Virus record (IMG/VR): IMGVR_UViG_3300013285_000036
Coordinates: 1-36,149 of that record
Length of the DNA: 36,149 bases
Source: a virus
Strand: one strand, 5' to 3'
A program made the position numbers and the translations under genes. Positions within the stretch are counted from its first letter, which is position 1, and each line of letters opens with the position of its first letter. The notes under the pieces were generated by a model. The model was given only the letters and a program-made list of their open reading frames with translations. It ran no database searches and was not told the DNA's origin. This document shows positions 7,151 to 36,149 of the stretch, piece after piece.

Positions 7151-10100
7151 TTATGCGGCGCGAGAATACTTTAACATTGCTTCCTGCGTATCATTTATAG
7201 TAGTTAATTTGGCAACCACAGTGTCCAATCTATCTGCTAACTGGTTCACCATGTTTGTCATACCAACTTGAATCGGATCAGATGGTGCGGGTATTGTATT
7301 GACAGGGGTAGTCTGTGCGGGTGTAGGTGGGGCCGGTTGATTAGCATCTGGTTTAGTTTTAGCAAAGTCTGCTGGCGTCGGTGTCGTTCGCACTGCTTTC
7401 GAAGGCGGGGTTAATGCTGCGACTTGCACCGGAGAAGCAGCCGCTGCATTCATGGTTGGAACAGCAGTAGGCATCATAGTGGAAACAGTAGTAGGCTCAA
7501 CTCCGGCTTGCGATGATTCACCTAATGCGCGATATGCTGAAGCTTTTGTCCCATATGCATCTGCATTATCATTGCCCTTGAATAAAGCAGTGGCACCTCC
7601 TACACCCTTTAAATGTGCTGCTGACAGCCAACCTGCAGTTTCTATGTTAGATGATTTACTATTCAATACACCTGCTTTTTGCAATCCCGCCATATTTTGT
7701 GAAGTATAGAGTGCAAATAATTTATCCTGCAGGGCCTCGTCTTTCAAAAACGCTGCCTTGCCGCCGGGTATTTTCCAAACCCCCGGATCATTCATAATTT
7801 CTTTATTTTTTAAGCCCCTACCTTTCAACTCCTGGTACTTCTTATTATCCAACGCACCCACACTAGCCAATGCCTCTGCACCAAACTGGTACTTACCTGC
7901 ATATCCCAGTGTGTTCTCGATACTAATATCGCCACCACTTTCACGATTAGCAACTGTCATTGCATAATTCTTTGACTGACTTTCAGTTAAGTTACCTATC
8001 GCACCTACTTTGGTATTTTGTAGTGATTCGGGGCGCTTTCCTTGAGTCAAACCACGTGACTTGTTATATGACTCTACATCAGATTTTGCCCTTTCGACTA
8101 GTTCGCGACCAAGCCGTTCTTGTACATCTTTTTCTAATTTTAGATTTGCTTCTTTCAGTGCGTTTAGTGCATCGGTCTGTGGTTTCAATTTTGCCGCTAA
8201 TCGTTTCTGAAATTCTGCTTTATCATGATCGGTCTTGTAACGATTAGCTTCTGCTTCCACTGAATATTTGATACCTGCATTCTCGGCTTCAAATAGCTTG
8301 ACTTTTGCATCATTTGACGCTGAGATTAGCAGTAGTTCACTATTTGCCAAATTCTTGCGGGCAGCTACTATTTCCGGATCAGTATCCATTGTCTTTTCTA
8401 CCGCAGCTTCTTTTACAGTAGCTACTCCAGTGATCTTATTATAGTTCTTTGTACTCTCCGCGATTCCTGCTTCAATTTCCTTTATCTTCTGCTTTGCATA
8501 CTTGATACTTAACTCTCTGGTCTTGTCTTCACCTAGGTGTGATAAAGACCGTTTCTGTAATGCCAGGCCGGCGCCTTGATGGTCGGTTTTGGCGGCTTGT
8601 TGTTCTTTAGTAGCGGCAGCTATATCAGCCGTTAACTGTAAATTACTACCGGGGCGGGCTAATTTTGATGCTTGCTCTTTAAGAGCCGCTAATTTAGTAT
8701 CAGCCGCAATTGACTTCTCTCTTGCTATCTTTTCTTTGTCTGATAGGGCAGTATAGTCAGCTAGCTTTGCAGCACTTAATGCCTCATCTCTCTTGAGATT
8801 CTCTTCTAATCCTTCTTTTTCTTTCTTGGCATTTTCTATGTTTGCTTTGACTTCTTCAGGGTCAGTAAACTGTTCCATCATCTTTTGGCCGGCTTCTTTA
8901 TATCCGGGAACCCAACTAATGATCTTACCAACTGCTTTACCAAATAGGGTCATAGTAGCAGTTAGCATTTGGAAGACGCTAGTGACAGGGCCGCGGATAG
9001 TATCAGCTAAGGTGTCCATTGCTTGTCTAGCTTTTAGCTCCACTGATAACTGGTCGTTCTGCGACTTCTTAACGACATCAATTAAGCCAATGCCCTTTTT
9101 CTTGTCATCAATTTCTTTATTAGTAAGTGATATTTTTTCTAAGAAGGCTTTTTTATCTTCTTCGGTTGTTAGGCGGGCCCATTCGGCAGCAGTCTGTCGC
9201 ATTTTGTTATCAACACCGAATACTTTTTGTAGTTCAACACTATGCTCACCAAATGCATACCCCACTTCACCAAAGTTCTTATCAAATCTTTTTGCAGCTT
9301 GCACTTGGCTAGTAAGCAAGTCACCTAGTGCAGACTGCCCTTTATTCAATTTTGCAGCCATCGCACCTATGGGTTCACCCGACAACAACAAGTTTGCGTT
9401 GGCTTGAGTAAACGCCACTGCCCCATCTGTCGCAATACTTTGTAAATGGGCGGCTGCTTTGCCGGCACTCATATATGTTACGGCTGACTTTGCGTATTCA
9501 TTCTTAGCATTAATTACCTGAGTTATTTCATCGGCTTTAGCCTGTAACTCTCTGCCGCGCGCGGTGTCGCCGGCGGCATTTGCCTGATCTTGTAACGAAT
9601 CCCTCTGTTGACCTTTATGGAAGATGTATGCATTAAAGTTTTCATTGGCATTAGCAACGTCCATTGCTGCTTGTTGTTTCTCTACTGATATTCCGGTTAT
9701 AGCAGCAAGTTGGTTCAAAGAGTCGATGTATGCTAGTGAACTTTTGCGCTGTACATCCACGTTCTTTGATAAAGTAAGACCCGATTGTACAGTTTGTCTT
9801 ACATAATCAGTTTGCAACTGCGTAACTTTTTCTTGGCTCATCCCAAGACGATTATACGAGTTACGTTGTTCCTGTGTTATTTGTGTTAGTTTACCAAATG
9901 CAACTAAACCGTCGCTTGCTGAGCCTGCTAGTCCAGCAAGCTCCTGACTTACTTTAATTGCATTCTTAGTGAAGATATCTAAGTTATGCGATGTGTATCC
10001 TGAAGCAGAACCTAGCTTTAAAATATCAGTAGTAGTTAACGATGTGGTCTGACCAAACTCACTTAGTGAGTCATAAGCCTTGATCATTGCATCATTTTGC

Positions 10101-10468
10101 TTGAGGACTAATTCGGCCCCCATAGTGAATAATTTGACTAACCCGCCGATGGCAAAGCCTAATATGCCAAATTTACTGCCGATATCCATAGCAGCATTGC
10201 CGGCTGCGCCTATGCCGGCATTATACTTGCTCATTCCTGCTTCAGTTGACATTACTGATTTACCAAAACCCTCAAACGTTTGGCGCAGTCCATTAGCAGC
10301 ACGTTCAGCCGCCGCTTCATACTTTGCTTTTTTAGCTGCCGCCTCGCCTTCTTGCTGGGCTCTTGCACGTTCAGACAGACTTACACCTTCCAAGATTTCT
10401 CTGTGGGCACGGAGCGCTTCAGAAAGTGCTTGAAGCTGTTCGTTTGCGTCTGTTGTTGGATCTGCCAT
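7151..10468 (-). CDS. Tape-measure-like tail protein with C-terminal wall hydrolase domain
   Basis: This 1105-residue protein is the best candidate for the tape measure, which sets tail length. It starts with charged helices, then hydrophobic segments at about 97-122 (FGILGFAIGGLVKLF) and 490-520, with long Lys/Glu/Ala-rich coiled-coil stretches between 540 and 815. Residues about 835-985 look like a lysozyme or lytic-transglycosylase domain: ANRESGGD (likely catalytic Glu near 843), GYAGKYQFGAEAL, and LSAAHLKGVGGA. A Pro/Thr/Ala linker and a short C-terminal coiled coil follow. It lies divergently next to gp26/gp51, whose products are tail-assembly factors. A good AGGAG precedes the ATG. Alternative: a virion-associated lysozyme protein not measuring length. 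Confidence 0.7.
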   Translation of the reverse strand: MADPTTDANEQLQALSEALRAHREILEGVSLSERARAQQEGEAAAKKAKYEAAAERAANGLRQTFEGFGKSVMSTEAGMSKYNAGIGAAGNAAMDIGSKFGILGFAIGGLVKLFTMGAELVLKQNDAMIKAYDSLSEFGQTTSLTTTDILKLGSASGYTSHNLDIFTKNAIKVSQELAGLAGSASDGLVAFGKLTQITQEQRNSYNRLGMSQEKVTQLQTDYVRQTVQSGLTLSKNVDVQRKSSLAYIDSLNQLAAITGISVEKQQAAMDVANANENFNAYIFHKGQQRDSLQDQANAAGDTARGRELQAKADEITQVINAKNEYAKSAVTYMSAGKAAAHLQSIATDGAVAFTQANANLLLSGEPIGAMAAKLNKGQSALGDLLTSQVQAAKRFDKNFGEVGYAFGEHSVELQKVFGVDNKMRQTAAEWARLTTEEDKKAFLEKISLTNKEIDDKKKGIGLIDVVKKSQNDQLSVELKARQAMDTLADTIRGPVTSVFQMLTATMTLFGKAVGKIISWVPGYKEAGQKMMEQFTDPEEVKANIENAKKEKEGLEENLKRDEALSAAKLADYTALSDKEKIAREKSIAADTKLAALKEQASKLARPGSNLQLTADIAAATKEQQAAKTDHQGAGLALQKRSLSHLGEDKTRELSIKYAKQKIKEIEAGIAESTKNYNKITGVATVKEAAVEKTMDTDPEIVAARKNLANSELLLISASNDAKVKLFEAENAGIKYSVEAEANRYKTDHDKAEFQKRLAAKLKPQTDALNALKEANLKLEKDVQERLGRELVERAKSDVESYNKSRGLTQGKRPESLQNTKVGAIGNLTESQSKNYAMTVANRESGGDISIENTLGYAGKYQFGAEALASVGALDNKKYQELKGRGLKNKEIMNDPGVWKIPGGKAAFLKDEALQDKLFALYTSQNMAGLQKAGVLNSKSSNIETAGWLSAAHLKGVGGATALFKGNDNADAYGTKASAYRALGESSQAGVEPTTVSTMMPTAVPTMNAAAASPVQVAALTPPSKAVRTTPTPADFAKTKPDANQPAPPTPAQTTPVNTIPAPSDPIQVGMTNMVNQLADRLDTVVAKLTTINDTQEAMLKYSRAA

Positions 10469-10551: not shown

Positions 10552-11379
10552 ATGTCAATAGATAACAACCCCCTAAAGCAATATTTTCGCAGACCGTCGA
10601 TTTACATTAAACTACCTAGCGGCGGTAAATACGCTCCGGGCGTGATTGATATGCCTGAAAACGGTGAGCTTCCTGTATACCCGATGACAGCCATTGATGA
10701 TATTACTAGTAAAACACCGGATGCTTTGTACAACGGCAGTGCAATCGTAGAAGTGATCAAAAGCTGTGTGCCGAACATCATCGATCCGTGGCAAATCAAT
10801 AACGTTGACTTTGATGCGATCCTTATTGCAATCAGATCAGCAGCCACAGGTAATGATATGGAGGTCGAAACAACATGTCCTGCATGTGAGGAGGAATCTA
10901 AGTACAATATCAGCTTAGTTGGTTTGCTATCTACTCTAAAAGCAGGTGATTATGCTACTGAATTGAATATCAAAGATATCGCAATTAAATTCAAACCTCT
11001 CACATACAAAGAGATGTCCGAAGCCAGTGTTGGTCAATTTGAAATGCAACGCCTATTCATTATGATTAATAATATTGAGAATGAAGAAGAAAAGTCGGCG
11101 CGCAGCAAAGAAGCATTGAAGACTATCACTGATATCACTATGCAAGTACTGTCAAAAACAGTAGAGTATATTAAGGTACCCACAGCATTTGTGGATAATA
11201 ATGAATATATCCTAGACTTCTTGCGAAACTGTGATAAGATGATGTTTGATCAGATCAAGGATCATAACTCGCTGTTAAAGAAACAAACAGAAGTTAAACC
11301 ATTGCATGTAAAATGCATCAGTTGTTCACATGAATATGAGCAACCATTTACGTTGAATGCTTCTGATTTTTTCGCATAA
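10552..11379 (+). CDS. gp26: Baseplate hub assembly protein, T4 gp26 family (zero-frame product)
   Basis: This 275-residue protein resembles the T4 gp26 baseplate family. It has an N-terminal IKLPSGGKY segment like the start of gp26 proteins, a CPAC pair (Cys109, Cys112) and a CISC pair near the C-terminus (Cys255, Cys258), which together could bind zinc. The middle FKPLTYKEMSE segment is also typical. AGGA lies seven bases before the ATG. The gene ends in a slippery sequence T TTT TTC three bases before its TAA stop, and an open -1 frame continues for 76 more codons, so both a short and a long product are likely, as in the tail-chaperone genes of other phages. Its neighbour across the divergent promoter is the tape measure. 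Confidence 0.82.
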   Translation: MSIDNNPLKQYFRRPSIYIKLPSGGKYAPGVIDMPENGELPVYPMTAIDDITSKTPDALYNGSAIVEVIKSCVPNIIDPWQINNVDFDAILIAIRSAATGNDMEVETTCPACEEESKYNISLVGLLSTLKAGDYATELNIKDIAIKFKPLTYKEMSEASVGQFEMQRLFIMINNIENEEEKSARSKEALKTITDITMQVLSKTVEYIKVPTAFVDNNEYILDFLRNCDKMMFDQIKDHNSLLKKQTEVKPLHVKCISCSHEYEQPFTLNASDFFA

Positions 11380-11415
11380 GGCTTCTACACCTTTCCCCTG
11401 AGGGTGTACAGAAGC
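11367..11415 (+). promoter_or_regulatory. Programmed -1 frameshift signal
   Basis: The heptamer T TTT TTC at 11367-11373 sits in the correct phase for simultaneous -1 slippage (preceding codon GAT). Seven bases later a hairpin begins: GCTTCTACACC (11381-11391) pairs with GGTGT (11403-11407) and AGAAGC (11410-11415), an 11-base-pair stem with a two-base bulge. The zero-frame stop TAA (11377-11379) lies between them. Slippery site, spacer and stem match the classical design. Confidence 0.85.
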
Positions 11416-11603
11416 TGATAGATGGTATGGAAAATGAATGTACTGAGATAAAGAAAAACGCATTAAGTTTATCTTGGTACATGAGGGGAGGGGTATCATA
11501 TGTAGATGTGCTCAATATGTCCTCTGAGGAGAGGGGCCATATAAATGATATCATAACTTCTAACTTAGAAACTACAAAGAAGAGTCAGTTACCATTCTTT
11601 TAA
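11373..11603 (+). CDS. gp51: gp51-like C-terminal extension made by -1 frameshift
   Basis: The -1 frame continues from CGC at 11373 for 76 codons to a TAA at 11601. It encodes a well-formed peptide with SPEGVQKLIDGMENE, then SLSWYMRGGVSYVDVLNMS, then ending ETTKKSQLPFF. A tryptophan-tyrosine-methionine-arginine-glycine-glycine core and an LPFF end look like gp51-type baseplate assembly proteins of T4-like phages. T4 also has gene 51 directly after 26. There is no suitable early start codon for independent translation with a ribosome site; the first ATG would lose about a quarter of the segment. The full fusion would be about 350 residues. Identity as gp51 rests on position and remembered motifs, so it is moderate. 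Confidence 0.75.
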   Translation, partial: RIRLLHLSPEGVQKLIDGMENECTEIKKNALSLSWYMRGGVSYVDVLNMSSEERGHINDIITSNLETTKKSQLPFF

Positions 11604-12861: not shown

Positions 12862-13887
12862 CTACCATGCTAAGGCGTAGTCCATTGATACTTGCTGAGC
12901 ACCGCACTTAGATCGGCATTCTATGCTATCCTGAATGAAGTCGCTCTGCCAGATATTATCATTCACTACTGCAATCAAGTCGTTGTTGAATAGATTAAAT
13001 CTCTTACCTATCTCGATCCAATAGGCATTATGTGCGTATCGGTTGGCAACCCAACTACATGGGTAAAAATCACCTTGACTATTAATAAACAGCCCCTTGT
13101 TTCCTATGTGACACAATGGTTTAATGTTGTCTGCTATGATTTCAGCTTTGTTATAAAACTTGATATTAGTTTCCATCCAAGGTTCAGTCAAGGTGCGCTC
13201 TGATAACTGTTGTATCTCACGCTCAAACCTCTTGCTTGAACTCATTAGTGAATCTTTCGGCTGCAACGGATCCACTAGCCCATAAACATTGGGATTCATT
13301 TTTCCAAATTTTGTACTTTTTGTTAATTGGAATTGGTCAAATCCCAACTTGTCTGCCATGTCTCGCATTACATCGATTTCATTTTGATTGAACTCGAACC
13401 CGATAGCATCCCATATCATCCAACAGTCAGAATTCTTTCTAACAGTTTCGATTCCATTGATGACGCTAGCAAAGTCAGAATTCACTCGGTACTTCTCATT
13501 ACTCTCCTGATCCCACCCGTCTAGGCTAAAGTGAATTTGATCAGGGAAACTAAGTGACTTAGCTAGACTTTCCCACCAAGTAGTCTTCTTATGACTGCCG
13601 TTGGTAACAATAATCATAGTGACTGGCTTGATAGACTTGATATAGTCTATGATTTCAGCAAACTCATGTGCATATATAGGATCACCATCGTTACCGCAGA
13701 AGGTTATCTTCTCCACGTAGTTCATAATGAACTCGGGGGTGAAGTTCTTCTTAAAGAACTCCAGGTCCAGTTCAGTGTTAACCAACGTACCGGGTACCTC
13801 TTGACGAGGACAACGTAGGCACGCTAGTGTACATTTGCTACTGACCTCTATGTGCCAGTGCCACAAAGCTATTGTGGGTTTATTCAT
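12862..13887 (-). CDS. Radical SAM protein with SPASM/twitch-like C-terminus
   Basis: This 341-residue protein has the radical SAM CX3CX2C motif (Cys19, Cys23, Cys26) that holds a 4Fe-4S cluster to cleave S-adenosylmethionine. FCGNDGDP (63-70) stands where the GGE motif of the family binds the SAM amino group, and IIVTNGS and IHFSLDG follow. Four more cysteines (259, 277, 324, 328), with GLFINSQGDFYPC between the first two, resemble a SPASM or twitch domain for a second cluster. Such enzymes usually modify peptides, but the substrate here cannot be read. It overlaps the gp46 stop by one base (TAATG) and has a GGAG site, so it is in the recombination operon. Related genes occur in other large environmental phages; their function is not established. 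Confidence 0.87.
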   Translation of the reverse strand: MNKPTIALWHWHIEVSSKCTLACLRCPRQEVPGTLVNTELDLEFFKKNFTPEFIMNYVEKITFCGNDGDPIYAHEFAEIIDYIKSIKPVTMIIVTNGSHKKTTWWESLAKSLSFPDQIHFSLDGWDQESNEKYRVNSDFASVINGIETVRKNSDCWMIWDAIGFEFNQNEIDVMRDMADKLGFDQFQLTKSTKFGKMNPNVYGLVDPLQPKDSLMSSSKRFEREIQQLSERTLTEPWMETNIKFYNKAEIIADNIKPLCHIGNKGLFINSQGDFYPCSWVANRYAHNAYWIEIGKRFNLFNNDLIAVVNDNIWQSDFIQDSIECRSKCGAQQVSMDYALAW

Positions 13888-30218: not shown

Positions 30219-33200
30219 ATGGCAACTAGAATTAGAACATTAAATTTTTTACCGGAAATCTTTAAAACTACTACGAACACGCAGTTTTTAAAGGCAACAT
30301 TAGATCAAGTTGTTGCACAGCCAAATTTAGAAAAGATTGAAGGCTATATTGGTAGCACGTTGGGGTATGGCATTAACGCCACAAACAACTACGTAGTTGA
30401 ACCTACAAAAGTGCGTACTGATTATCAACTAGATCCGGGTGTAGTGTTCTTGAATAAAGACTCACCTGTTGCGCAAGATTTCATTAGCTATCCCGGTATA
30501 ATTGATGCACTGAAATTAGAAGGTGGTATTACTGATAACAATAATAGATTGTTCAACAGCCAATTCTACTCATGGGATTCGTTCACGCAGTTAGATAAAA
30601 TTATCAATTTTAATCAATACTATTGGATACCAGAGGGTCCTGATCAAGTTCAAGTAACCTCTAATGTAGTATTCAATGCACTTGATTATATTGTTACTGA
30701 CGAAACCAACGGATACAATATCTCCGCTATTAATCAGGCATCAAGTTCTACTAATCCTACGATTACATTGCTACGTGGTGGTACATACACGTTTGCCGTA
30801 AATCAAGCGACCCAGTTTTGGATTCAAGGCATGCCGGGTGTCACTGGATATAGCCCAACACAACCCAATTTGCAAACTAGAGATGTATTGGGTGTTGTTA
30901 ATAACGGTGCTACTACGGGTATCGTCACGTTTACTGTACCTAGCAAGAATGCACAATCTGAGTTTAACTTTCCTGGTAACAACTTAGTAGATGTTGTAAG
31001 TACGTTACCGTATGATCAAGTCAACGGTATGTTATTGAGTGACTTAGTAAGTATCGACGGTATTACTGCACTTAATGGTTTAACTCTGATGTTTTATGAT
31101 ACCGGCGTCGATAGTGAACAGGGATTCATTTCATCATTCTATGATACAACAACCTATGATCAAGTTGATCCTGCGCTGGTAGACGGCTTTGGTAATTATG
31201 AAGGCGGCTACTATACTGATGTTAGCGCAACCTTTTATCAAATCACCTACGTAGGTGAAGCATCATCCCAGTCTATCAAATTAGTGGAATATGCACCTAT
31301 CCCGACTAATCAGAAAATTACTGCAATGTTTGGTACAGAGTGGATTTCTCGCAACTTCTATAGAAATATAGCAGGTACGATCTCCTTAATCCCATATCTA
31401 AGTTCATTACTTGATACATTATACTATCAAGACGGAACATCTGGTAATAAAGTAGGTGTATTGAAACTAATTGATAGTAATGCAACATATACAATTGATG
31501 TCATCACTGACATCTTGGGTAAAAAGCAATATACTGCAACGAACGGGGTGGTGTTTACTAACGGTTTAAAGATCATACTATCAGGTGATATTTATCCTGC
31601 CAGCTACCAGAACATTCCGTACTACGTCGAAGGTGTAGGTACTGCTATTGAATTGATTCCGGTCTCTGATTTAGTCGCACCTGAATTATTCACAGCCGGC
31701 ACATACATTCCGTATGACACGACTGCGTATGATATCGGTAACTTTGACAGTAGCTTGTATATTCCGGTAACACCTGATTACATTACTGTTGCTAGAAATG
31801 CCATCAACAAAAATGCATGGTCTAGAAGTAATCGATGGTTTCACATTGATGTTATCAATGCGACTGCTACCTATAATAACAATCCTGCATTGGCTACGAT
31901 ATACACTAATGCAGCATACAAAGCTAAGCGACCGATTATCGAATTTTATCCTAACCTAAGAATGTTTGATTCCGGTGTGGTGGGTAAACAGCCGGTTGAC
32001 TTTATTGACTTCAGAACAGTTGATGCATTCTCGCATGTCGCTGGTCAACAGAACTACTACCCTGACGTACAAGTATATACCGGGTACACGGCTTCTATTG
32101 TCGGAATTTCCGGCCCTATCACCGTGCTTGCATCGGCTACTGCAACAGTTGATAATGAAATTACGGTTTCATCAACCGTCGGCTTTCATATCAATGACCG
32201 GGTTACCTTTACAGGTACGGTATTCGGCGGCGTAACGGCAAGTACAATTATTCCTCCTGCTACTACCATTTACTATATTAGTAAAATTCTTAGCCTAACT
32301 ACATTTACTATATCTACTGCACTCGACGGCGCTGAGTTTCAGCTTACGCCTGCTACAGGGTCAATGACTGTAATTGTCGTACCATTCAGTACAACAGTTA
32401 CTATTCCGTCTACCGATATAACGGGTAGTTTTCAAGTTGGACAGTATATAGCTGATACAACTAATGTGCTGCCTAGAAACTCATACATCTCTGCAATCAC
32501 CGGAACGGTAACTACTGTTCTAACGGTTACATGGAATAATGAGAAAACTTTCACATCAGCTACTTCAGCATCGCTAATAGCAACTGACACGACTAATGAT
32601 AATTACGCATTATTCGATGGTGCTAGGGTGGTGTTCGCTGCGGATTTCAATAGTGCAGTAAAAAATAAAATCTACGTATCTCGTTTCTCTACGGTGTCTA
32701 ACTCGGCAACACCTGTATTAACTCTTACTGAAGCGAGTGACGGTATTGTATTAGCTGACGAACAGACAGTTGCATATCGCGGTTATAATTATAAAGGTAA
32801 AGACTTTTATTATACCGGATCTAATTGGGTTGAGGCTCAGCAAAAAAGCACTGTTAATCAGACACCGTTATTTGATATTTTTGATCATAACGGTATTAGC
32901 TTCGGTGATGCATCGGTGTACACCGGCACATCCTTCACGGGTACTGCTCTGTTCAAATACGGTGCAGGAACCGGATTATCCGACACTGTGTTGGGTTTCC
33001 CGATTCGATATAGTTCAGTTAACAACGTAGGTGACATTAGCTTTGATGTATCATTGAATAATGATACCTTCGATTACGTGAGTGGTCTTGCCCCGATCAC
33101 ACAAAAAGTAAACACCGGTTATGTCTACAACTATACTAGTACGGCTACATACGTGCGTGAGTTGGGCTGGCAAACAGCGATTGCACCGAGTATTCAGTAT

Positions 33201-36149
33201 CAAGTATTTGAATTCCCTTATACCGCTGCAAACCCAACCTCAACTTTCATATGTGATGTTGCAATGACTAGCACTAGTGTTTGGGCTCCTATTCAGTTGT
33301 TGGTTAATAATCAGCTACAAGATATTGCTTCATACACCACTGTTGTTACTGCTGATAGCACAACGGTTACGTTCATCTTACCGGTCACTAGTGTTGATAC
33401 GGTCGTGCAAATTTTATTACTTAGTGATCAGGCTAGTAAGGTTGCGTATTATAGCATCCCTGCTAACTTGAATAATAACCCACTGAACGCAGACGTGACC
33501 ACAGTTAACGTCGGTGATATTCGCGGTCAATATCGTAGTATGTTTACTAACTGCCCCACAACAACTGGTCCTGTATTCGGTGCCAATAACTACAGAGACT
33601 TGGGTAACTTAGTACCTTACGGTAACAAGATCATTCAAAATAGTGCATCACTTGTGCTACCGGGTGTATTTTTACGCAAGCAAAATCACAACTTATTTGA
33701 TGCATTATTGTTCAATGGTAGAGAATATGTCACCTTTAAGACATTATTAGTTGACACCGTTAATAATACTGAATTCTCAGTGTATCAAACTCCTGCAAGC
33801 ATGTTAGATACTGCATTGGATCAGATCACGGCGGCAAAGACAGATAGCAATTCATTCTTCTGGAGTGATATGTTACCTACTAAGGCGGCATACATTACCA
33901 ACACATATACTTTCGCTAACTCATTGGCAGTAAGTATATACCCGCTAAGTAGAATATATGATTTCACTGCCGCAAACTACTACGGTTTACTAGTTTACTT
34001 GACACGTACTACGAGCGGCTTAACTCAGGTCACACAGCTAACTCGCACCAATGATTATGTGGTTAGTGTTGATAGTCCTGCATTAACAATTACTATGGCC
34101 TTGTTACCGGGCGATCAGATTACTATCGGTGAATATAATCAGACATACGGTAGCTATGTGCCAAACACTCCTACTAAGCTAGGTTTGTATTCTGCTACTA
34201 CGCCTACTGTCATGCTAGATAGCAACTATACACAGCCAACATACTTTATTCTTGGACATGATGGATCATTTAATAAATTATACGGTGCATATAACCCTAC
34301 TACAAATCAACTAGTTGATTTTAGAGACCAAGTGTTGTTGGAATTCGAAAAGCGTATCTATAACAATTTAAAAATCAGCGCAACCATTCCTATTAAGGAA
34401 TATGAAGTGATGCCCGGTTTCTTTAGAGATACAGATTACTCATATGATGAGATTTTAAATATATACTCAACTAGTTTCTTGAACTGGGTGGGTCAAAATA
34501 GAATTGATTATAAAAAGCAATTCTATAGTGCGGCTGATGAGTACACATTTAATTATGCGAATAGCGGCAACAAGATTGACAAGGCTCCTATTCAACCGGG
34601 GTACTGGAGAGGTGCATATGAGTATTTCTATGACACAAGTACCCCTGAAACCACGCCGTGGGAAATGTTGGGCTTTAGTGAACAACCATCATGGTGGCCA
34701 GCACGTTACGGCGTAGCACCATATACTAGTGATAACTTAGTATTGTGGGATGATTTAGCACAGGGTATTAATTGGAACAACGGTAATCCGATTGTTATTA
34801 CTCAGGCAATCAGACCCCAATTGTTAGCAGTATTACCGGTTGATAGTCAAGGTAATCTAGTATCACCGTTCATATCATTAGTCGGTAATTATAACAATCA
34901 AACGTTTAATCACGACTGGAAAGTCGGTGATGTAGGCCCGGCAGAGTTTAGTTATAGACGCAGTAGCACATGGCCATTCGACTTGATGAGAATATTGGCG
35001 TTGACTAAGCCGGCTGAATTCTTTAACTTGGCAGTAGACCTAGACAATTACAAATATAATACAGAATTTAATCAATATCTAGTTAATGATAGAAGCCATC
35101 TTGTAATCAATAACATTGACATATACGGATCAGGTACACCAAAGACCAGTTATTTAAACTGGATAGTTGACTATGAAAAACAAGTTGGTATCGATGCCAC
35201 ACAAAGTCTGACTGACGTTTTAGACAATCTTGATGTTAGATTAGTGTACCGAGTCGCCGGCTTCAGTGACAAGAATCTATTGAAATTCTACGTTGAAAAG
35301 GGTACACCTAACAGCAAGAGTAGTTCATTGCTAATCCCGGATGAGAGCTATTCTGTATTATTGTATGAAAATCAACCGTTTAGCCGAATTATATATAGCG
35401 GTGTTGTCGTGCAAATCAGTGCAAATGGGTACACAGTATACGGTAACTCACAGACTAATGCGTATTTCAGAACTCTTCGCCCGAAGATTAACGGAAACTC
35501 TTCTACTATAACTGTTGAAAAGTTAAGTGTACAAGTAGCCAACTCATATTATGATGAAGAAGTATTAATACCATACGGTACTGAATTTTATTCAGCACAG
35601 GAACTAAGTCAGTTCTTAGAAAGCTACGGCAAATTCTTAGAGAGTCAGGGTGCAGTATTTGATCAACTTGAATCTGAGTTAACAATCAACTGGCGCCAAA
35701 TGGTTGCTGAATTTTTATATTGGGCTCAAACAGGCTGGGATATCGGTAGCATTACTACGATTAACCCAGCTGCTACTTTACTAACTATCAATAAAGATAG
35801 TAATATTGTTCAACCTCTGACATTGCAAAGACAGAACTTTATTCTAAATCAAAACTTGTATCCAATCCAAGCAAGTGATTTAGCCATTGTCCGCGACGGT
35901 ACATTATTCTCTGCTCAACCATTGGCATCTGGTGATACCATCGGATACGGTACATTCAACATCAGTAATATTGAACACGGTATTGTATTTGATAACGTGA
36001 CATTATTCAATGACATTATTTACAACTTAGTGACAGGTTTACGTCAAAATAGAATCACTGTTCGGGGTACAAAAACTGCCGAATGGAATGGTACAGTTGA
36101 CGCACAGGGCTTTATCTTGAATCAAGATAATATCGCTGAATGGACTAAA
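30219..36149 (+). CDS. gp7: Baseplate wedge protein, T4 gp7 family, cut by the window end
   Basis: The frame is open from the ATG at 30219 to the last base, at least 1977 codons with no stop seen at the points I read, so the gene continues beyond the window. It starts MATRIRTLNFLPEIFKTTTN and soon reads FDxTQLDKIINFNQYYWIPE-like text (actual: SFTQLDKIINFNQYYW), typical of gp7-like proteins of T4-like phages. Near 34600-34700 it encodes GYWRGAYEYFYDT then PWEMLGFSEQPSWWPARYG, another strong family segment. T4 gp7 has 1032 residues, so this version is at least twice that. A stretch near 32100-32800 is Thr/Ser/Val-rich and looks like inserted beta-sandwich modules. A weak AGAGAG site precedes the ATG. 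Confidence 0.9.
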   Translation, partial: MATRIRTLNFLPEIFKTTTNTQFLKATLDQVVAQPNLEKIEGYIGSTLGYGINATNNYVVEPTKVRTDYQLDPGVVFLNKDSPVAQDFISYPGIIDALKLEGGITDNNNRLFNSQFYSWDSFTQLDKIINFNQYYWIPEGPDQVQVTSNVVFNALDYIVTDETNGYNISAINQASSSTNPTITLLRGGTYTFAVNQATQFWIQGMPGVTGYSPTQPNLQTRDVLGVVNNGATTGIVTFTVPSKNAQSEFNFPGNNLVDVVSTLPYDQVNGMLLSDLVSIDGITALNGLTLMFYDTGVDSEQGFISSFYDTTTYDQVDPALVDGFGNYEGGYYTDVSATFYQITYVGEASSQSIKLVEYAPIPTNQKITAMFGTEWISRNFYRNIAGTISLIPYLSSLLDTLYYQDGTSGNKVGVLKLIDSNATYTIDVITDILGKKQYTATNGVVFTNGLKIILSGDIYPASYQNIPYYVEGVGTAIELIPVSDLVAPELFTAGTYIPYDTTAYDIGNFDSSLYIPVTPDYITVARNAINKNAWSRSNRWFHIDVINATATYNNNPALATIYTNAAYKAKRPIIEFYPNLRMFDSGVVGKQPVDFIDFRTVDAFSHVAGQQNYYPDVQVYTGYTASIVGISGPITVLASATATVDNEITVSSTVGFHINDRVTFTGTVFGGVTASTIIPPATTIYYISKILSLTTFTISTALDGAEFQLTPATGSMTVIVVPFSTTVTIPSTDITGSFQVGQYIADTTNVLPRNSYISAITGTVTTVLTVTWNNEKTFTSATSASLIATDTTNDNYALFDGARVVFAADFNSAVKNKIYVSRFSTVSNSATPVLTLTEASDGIVLADEQTVAYRGYNYKGKDFYYTGSNWVEAQQKSTVNQTPLFDIFDHNGISFGDASVYTGTSFTGTALFKYGAGTGLSDTVLGFPIRYSSVNNVGDISFDVSLNNDTFDYVSGLAPITQKVNTGYVYNYTSTATYVRELGWQTAIAPSIQYQVFEFPYTAANPTSTFICDVAMTSTSVWAPIQLLVNNQLQDIASYTTVVTADSTTVTFILPVTSVDTVVQILLLSDQASKVAYYSIPANLNNNPLNADVTTVNVGDIRGQYRSMFTNCPTTTGPVFGANNYRDLGNLVPYGNKIIQNSASLVLPGVFLRKQNHNLFDALLFNGREYVTFKTLLVDTVNNTEFSVYQTPASMLDTALDQITAAKTDSNSFFWSDMLPTKAAYITNTYTFANSLAVSIYPLSRIYDFTAANYYGLLVYLTRTTSGLTQVTQLTRTNDYVVSVDSPALTITMALLPGDQITIGEYNQTYGSYVPNTPTKLGLYSATTPTVMLDSNYTQPTYFILGHDGSFNKLYGAYNPTTNQLVDFRDQVLLEFEKRIYNNLKISATIPIKEYEVMPGFFRDTDYSYDEILNIYSTSFLNWVGQNRIDYKKQFYSAADEYTFNYANSGNKIDKAPIQPGYWRGAYEYFYDTSTPETTPWEMLGFSEQPSWWPARYGVAPYTSDNLVLWDDLAQGINWNNGNPIVITQAIRPQLLAVLPVDSQGNLVSPFISLVGNYNNQTFNHDWKVGDVGPAEFSYRRSSTWPFDLMRILALTKPAEFFNLAVDLDNYKYNTEFNQYLVNDRSHLVINNIDIYGSGTPKTSYLNWIVDYEKQVGIDATQSLTDVLDNLDVRLVYRVAGFSDKNLLKFYVEKGTPNSKSSSLLIPDESYSVLLYENQPFSRIIYSGVVVQISANGYTVYGNSQTNAYFRTLRPKINGNSSTITVEKLSVQVANSYYDEEVLIPYGTEFYSAQELSQFLESYGKFLESQGAVFDQLESELTINWRQMVAEFLYWAQTGWDIGSITTINPAATLLTINKDSNIVQPLTLQRQNFILNQNLYPIQASDLAIVRDGTLFSAQPLASGDTIGYGTFNISNIEHGIVFDNVTLFNDIIYNLVTGLRQNRITVRGTKTAEWNGTVDAQGFILNQDNIAEWTK

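Follow-up and report, generated by a model that had tools for sequence, protein, structure and literature searches.

The window considered here, by which we mean the whole stretch of 36,149 nt that was analysed, is the IMG/VR record IMGVR_UViG_3300013285_000036. It is a fragment, and it carries jumbo-myophage genes for a major head protein, a protease, a portal, a gp46/gp47-like nuclease, a late sigma factor and baseplate proteins. The features of the locus under study are the following:

7151..10468, minus strand: divergent neighbour gene, 1105 aa, with a transglycosylase/lysozyme-like stretch (phrog_27932, E 3.8e-18)
10552..11379, plus strand: zero-frame open reading frame, 275 aa, PF12322 (T4_baseplate); short form, T4 gp26 counterpart
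11367..11373, plus strand: slippery heptamer T_TTT_TTC, in phase with the reading frame 10552-11379
11367..11603, plus strand: -1 frame extension, 78 aa (FFRIRLL...WYMRGG...LPFF) plus stop, homologous to the T4 gp51 C-terminal tail
11377..11379, plus strand: zero-frame stop TAA, between the heptamer and the stem
11380..11416, plus strand: predicted stimulatory hairpin from RNA folding, 15 pairs (7 outer and 8 inner) with a 2-nt bulge

The zero-frame product matches PF12322 with E 3.1e-14 (53.6 bits against a curated cut-off of 24.5) and the baseplate hub family phrog_150 with E 2.2e-16, and a PF12322 search of the 36-kb record, itself a fragment, returns this one gene. Its last codons are GAT TTT TTC GCA TAA, with the heptamer lying three codons ahead of the stop. 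The overlap with the -1 frame thus holds an in-phase heptamer of the form X_XXY_YYZ, which is one criterion for programmed -1 ribosomal frameshifting, and the locus has the capacity to encode two isoforms of 275 and approximately 350 residues with a common N-terminal domain. The initial annotation had described an in-phase T TTT TTC heptamer, a zero-frame stop between heptamer and hairpin and a WYMRGG core, and each of these is found, at 11367-11373, at 11377-11379 and in the -1 translation, respectively. The -1 frame is also open as described, although its length is 78 codons plus stop, the 76 codons given earlier omitting the two Phe codons of the heptamer. The heptamer by itself is not rare (7 occurrences in the window versus 9 expected), and the case must therefore rest on its phase, position and conservation.

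The divergent neighbour carries its transglycosylase/lysozyme-like stretch at approximately residues 809-1015; the corresponding PF06737 match (E 1.9e-4) is under the family cut-off. In phage RaK2 the divergent gene in the equivalent position carries a note of similarity to a tape measure protein, which suggests that the 1105-residue product may be a tape measure as well. It is possibly a tape measure or hub protein and, as a tape measure, would perhaps have a built-in wall-degrading domain. Elsewhere in the window, a radical SAM protein with a SPASM-like stretch (12862-13887, minus strand; PF04055, E 1.5e-8) adjoins the gp46/gp47-like recombination genes, and past the baseplate wedge gene a 1977-codon open frame (30219-36149, plus strand) runs off the record end; it probably encodes a very large structural protein.

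Relatives were collected as 61 IMG/VR loci found with the window protein and as cultured phages retrieved from GenBank by tblastn. All IMG/VR loci that span the site have the in-phase T_TTT_TTC, followed by a -1 product of 72-81 residues. Both are also found in every one of the 14 cultured jumbo phages compared (Atu_ph07, 121Q, Phosso, 30-2, PA5oct, BF, Munch, CBB, SCTP-2, GAP32, RaK2, Vibrio 2.275, XacN1 and XaC1), where the identity of the short-form protein to that of the window falls to 22-34%; XacN1 has the variant T_TTT_TTT. Distant phages with a single gene also carry the heptamer, namely phiAS5 (Straboviridae), the cyanophage Sf-FS3 and the Rhizobium phages IC12 and RL38J1, the last with the variant T_TTT_TTG. 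After removal of near-duplicates, the in-phase heptamer is kept in 54 of 55 loci, comprising jumbo phages, the cyanophage, two rhizobial phages and Aeromonas phage phiAS5, and a second IMG/VR scan adds 66 distinct loci, some overlapping the first set, of which 66 of 66 have TTTTTTC and encode a -1 product of 78 residues. The heptamer conservation on which the initial reading had been staked is thus borne out. The amino acid ahead of the two Phe residues varies (D, N, S, H, R, Y or A), but the wobble base of its codon is T throughout the 54-locus set. Given the residues, the joint chance of this wobble T and of TTT at the first Phe is approximately 1e-21, a figure that assumes independent loci, an assumption only partly true. 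The same data bear on the idea that a sequencing error or a recent frameshift mutation has split a once-continuous gene. T homopolymers are indeed error-prone; however, the identical phase and heptamer recur in approximately 120 distinct loci with very divergent proteins, including isolate genomes from many laboratories. This conservation refutes the explanation, whose probability is practically nil.

Coding selection was examined in 20 members of the window's clade by comparing the synonymous share of differing codons across frames. Of the codons that differ within -1 codons 21-78, 41% are synonymous when read in the -1 frame, compared with 4-11% in the other frames, and in -1 codons 6-20 the share is 35%, compared with 11% and 4.5%. 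The median dN/dS of the -1 frame is approximately 0.19 in this clade. The protein-like content attributed to this frame at the outset is consistent with such purifying selection, which extends ahead of the possible starts too. These data bear directly on deposited annotations, which treat the -1 frame as a small gene of its own whose translation would depend on re-initiation or on an internal ATG at window position 11427 (-1 codon 21). About half of the loci have an in-frame ATG at codon 21, overlapping ATGs are present in 121Q and Phosso, Pseudomonas phage Cygsa01 has a TAATG and no heptamer, and the records of Atu_ph07, GAP32, CBB and 121Q annotate a separate gene. Codons 6-20 are, however, under -1 selection upstream of this ATG, so that translation must come through the junction; codons 3-20 are moreover conserved in protein and under purifying selection. 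Among the loci compared, -1 codons 1-15 hold no conserved start codon, and in many loci they hold none at all; a separate start for the gp51-like frame, an observation named initially as contrary to frameshifting, is thus not seen. In addition, the heptamer is kept at synonymous sites, and in T4 the counterpart, gp51, is one continuous fusion. A separate gene is for these reasons very improbable, and we rejected it on the selection upstream of the internal start and the heptamer conservation. The programmed -1 frameshift proposed in the initial annotation, by contrast, draws support from both heptamer conservation and -1 coding selection.

Folding of the 50 nt after the heptamer places the hairpin at 11380-11416 with -17.3 kcal/mol (z -2.84 versus dinucleotide shuffles). 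A bulged hairpin had been noted before and is recovered, with 15 pairs rather than the 11 bp first given; the earlier seven-base spacer holds when the closing G-U pair is left out, and is otherwise 6 nt. The 53 nt after the site were also compared with recodings that keep the -1 amino acids. The window hairpin is more stable than these synonymous recodings (z -3.34), as is the site in the window's clade overall (mean z -3.35, n=21), whereas other lineages give a mean z of -1.31 (n=33), with values near zero in BF, Munch, GAP32 and RaK2. Control windows upstream and downstream have mean z values of -0.1 to -1.3, compared with -3.42 at the site. In the aligned clade (20 relatives), the window structure is paired in 70% of cells versus 38-49% when slid, and changes on both sides of the stem are modest. 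RNAalifold on the clade alignment does not return the window stem as consensus and gives a different short helix of near-zero energy, so that the case for the stem rests on energies against synonymous recoding and not on covariation. Since the outer arms of the hairpin also encode conserved residues, the recoding test is stronger than the pairing and covariation test. The hairpin is a lineage feature and not a universal part: it is clear in the window's clade and weak or absent in enterobacterial jumbo phages. Stem conservation, which had been put forward as a test of the initial reading, therefore holds within the clade and fails in the distant enterobacterial phages.

Six consecutive T, as in the heptamer, can induce transcriptional slippage, so that the shift could in principle be made by RNA polymerase during transcription instead of by the ribosome. 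Polymerase slippage favours longer runs, whereas here a C caps the run in 52 of 54 loci; the hairpin spacing of 6-7 nt, furthermore, fits ribosomal -1 frameshifting. Slippage by the polymerase is accordingly a highly improbable source of the -1 product.

Taken together, ribosomal frameshifting is the preferred reading, and it is very probable, as judged from sequence, that the single PF12322 gene of this jumbo myophage gives two tail assembly chaperone isoforms by programmed -1 frameshift. Most ribosomes would stop at the TAA at 11377 and yield the 275-residue short form, corresponding to gp26, and a fraction would slip by -1 on T_TTT_TTC and yield a long form of approximately 350 residues, corresponding to gp51. 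In the window's clade, slippage would be helped by the hairpin 6-7 nt downstream. The tape measure or hub may then be the target of both isoforms, by analogy with lambda G and GT. The heptamer, its phase and conservation, the coding selection in the -1 frame, the local RNA structure and the homology of the long form to T4 gp51 are the observed basis on which we infer the occurrence and frequency of slippage.

With respect to the T4 proteins, gp26 and gp51 both match PF12322 over the full length of the family and are paralogues; gp51 adds a C-terminal tail to a gp26-like domain. In the jumbo phages, the long form aligns with the gp51 family across the junction (hhalign E 6.6e-7), as do the long forms of phiAS5, Sf-FS3, IC12 and RL38J1 with the same family at E 3.3e-17. 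The isolated -1 domain matches the gp51 tail with E 1.5e-6, compared with 0.018 or worse for reversed, column-shuffled and other-segment controls. T4 gp26, read against the phiAS5 end LSDFFA, ends in LKEFFELL, with FF at the slip-site position. Because gp51 aligns through the junction and gp26 ends at the FF, the short product can be regarded as the gp26 counterpart and the whole long product as that of gp51. The initial view of gp51 as present only in the form of a small fusion domain does not hold, given that gp51 itself matches the whole of PF12322 and only its tail matches the -1 domain.

The comparison of the gp26/gp51 arrangement in relatives, also suggested at the outset, was made by a genome-wide PF12322 search across T4-type and heptamer-bearing phages, and, with one exception, the genomes fall into two types: a single gene carrying the heptamer, or a pair of genes lacking it. 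Two PF12322 genes each are found in T4, RB43, phage 31, Acj9, SFHK24 and PhT2, and in none of these six T4-type genomes does either gene end in a suitable heptamer. The heptamer-bearing phages tested have a single PF12322 gene, that of SCTP-2 falling below the search threshold and RL38J1 showing an extra 20-residue PF12322 fragment at its terminal repeat. The exception is Cygsa01, where one PF12322 gene without heptamer overlaps a small -1 open reading frame through TAATG, a third arrangement that is possibly based on translational coupling. Aeromonas phage phiAS5, a member of the Straboviridae, keeps the single-gene TTTTTTC form, unlike T4, RB43 and phage 31. In a tree of the shared domain, whose root is arbitrary and some of whose branches are long, gp26 and gp51 group together (96/90) next to the single-gene phiAS5, which is compatible with a duplication on the T4 side. 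We lean slightly towards a scenario where one gene with a -1 frameshift would be ancestral in the T4 superfamily and the T4 branch would have duplicated the gene and fixed the shifted frame in one copy; gp26 and gp51 would then be a separated frameshift pair, and phiAS5 would retain the frameshift.

In the literature, T4 gp26 and gp51 appear as hub assembly chaperones (PMC3004832). According to papers that cite Vladimirov, Gautam and Davidson 2022 (Virology 566:9-15), that work identified the two as tail assembly chaperones and described poly-T frameshift signals in some T4-like phages, whereas a 2016 review still presented T4 as an exception to the conserved tail-chaperone frameshift (PMC5009743). 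The mechanism class is thus already known, with the T4-like case reported as published by those citing papers. Our literature search found no paper on a frameshift at the PF12322 gene in jumbo phages; new here are how widely the site is conserved among jumbo phages, the local hairpin signal of one clade and the pattern of one gene with the heptamer versus two without.

The initial proposal that the T4 26/51 pair connects with the lambda G/GT design is supported. As in lambda gpG/gpGT (PMC5009743), a short reading frame has a slippery site near its 3' end and a -1 extension, and one gene would give two isoforms of which the long one is minor. Unlike in lambda, the gene belongs to PF12322, a stable hairpin follows the heptamer in the window's clade, and the large structural gene next to it is divergently oriented instead of lying downstream. 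Relative to T4 itself, the gene shares the PF12322 family, a short form that stops where gp26 stops and a long form that aligns with gp51 including its C-terminal tail; it differs in that T4-type phages encode the two forms in two paralogous genes without heptamer, and the window would make them from one gene with a frameshift.

A tail assembly chaperone function of both isoforms is suggested by homology and architecture. Next to the PF12322 gene lies the large divergent structural gene, a possible tape measure. The N-terminal part was modelled with pLDDT 87, and the AlphaFold2 model of the -1 domain is all-helical, with the same pLDDT of 87. VIA-align of the N-domain to the HK97 tail chaperone 2OB9 gives a weak match that is tied with unrelated chains (Z 5.7, 87 residues, rmsd 7.0). 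Neither Foldseek of the N-domain against the PDB nor a fold search of viral models with the -1 domain returned a significant match, and sequence searches of solved structures with both parts gave no convincing match. A Pfam scan of the -1 domain found no convincing family, and a PHROG scan matched only phrog_18291, of unknown function, in some relatives (best E 6.8e-6).

In public records, the -1 domain appears as a separate hypothetical protein starting from an internal or overlapping ATG (e.g. GAP32_242 and 121Q 595), and in RaK2 and PA5oct it has no annotation. Such entries look like a misannotated frameshift product. A comparable situation is found in Pseudomonas phage Adele and the Vandenendeviridae, where a conserved -1 frameshift in a myophage tail chaperone, there with the slippery sequence GTTTTT, has a -1 part that is routinely entered as a hypothetical gene (PMC12846349).

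For jumbo myophages, these results point to a broadly conserved and testable frameshift site, which would correct the many records where the -1 domain passes for a hypothetical gene and would supply a single-gene counterpart of the T4 gp26/gp51 pair. By comparing lineages with and without the stem, one could examine what determines the isoform ratio. The single-gene frameshift relatives, including phiAS5 within the Straboviridae, indicate how the T4 exception could have arisen.
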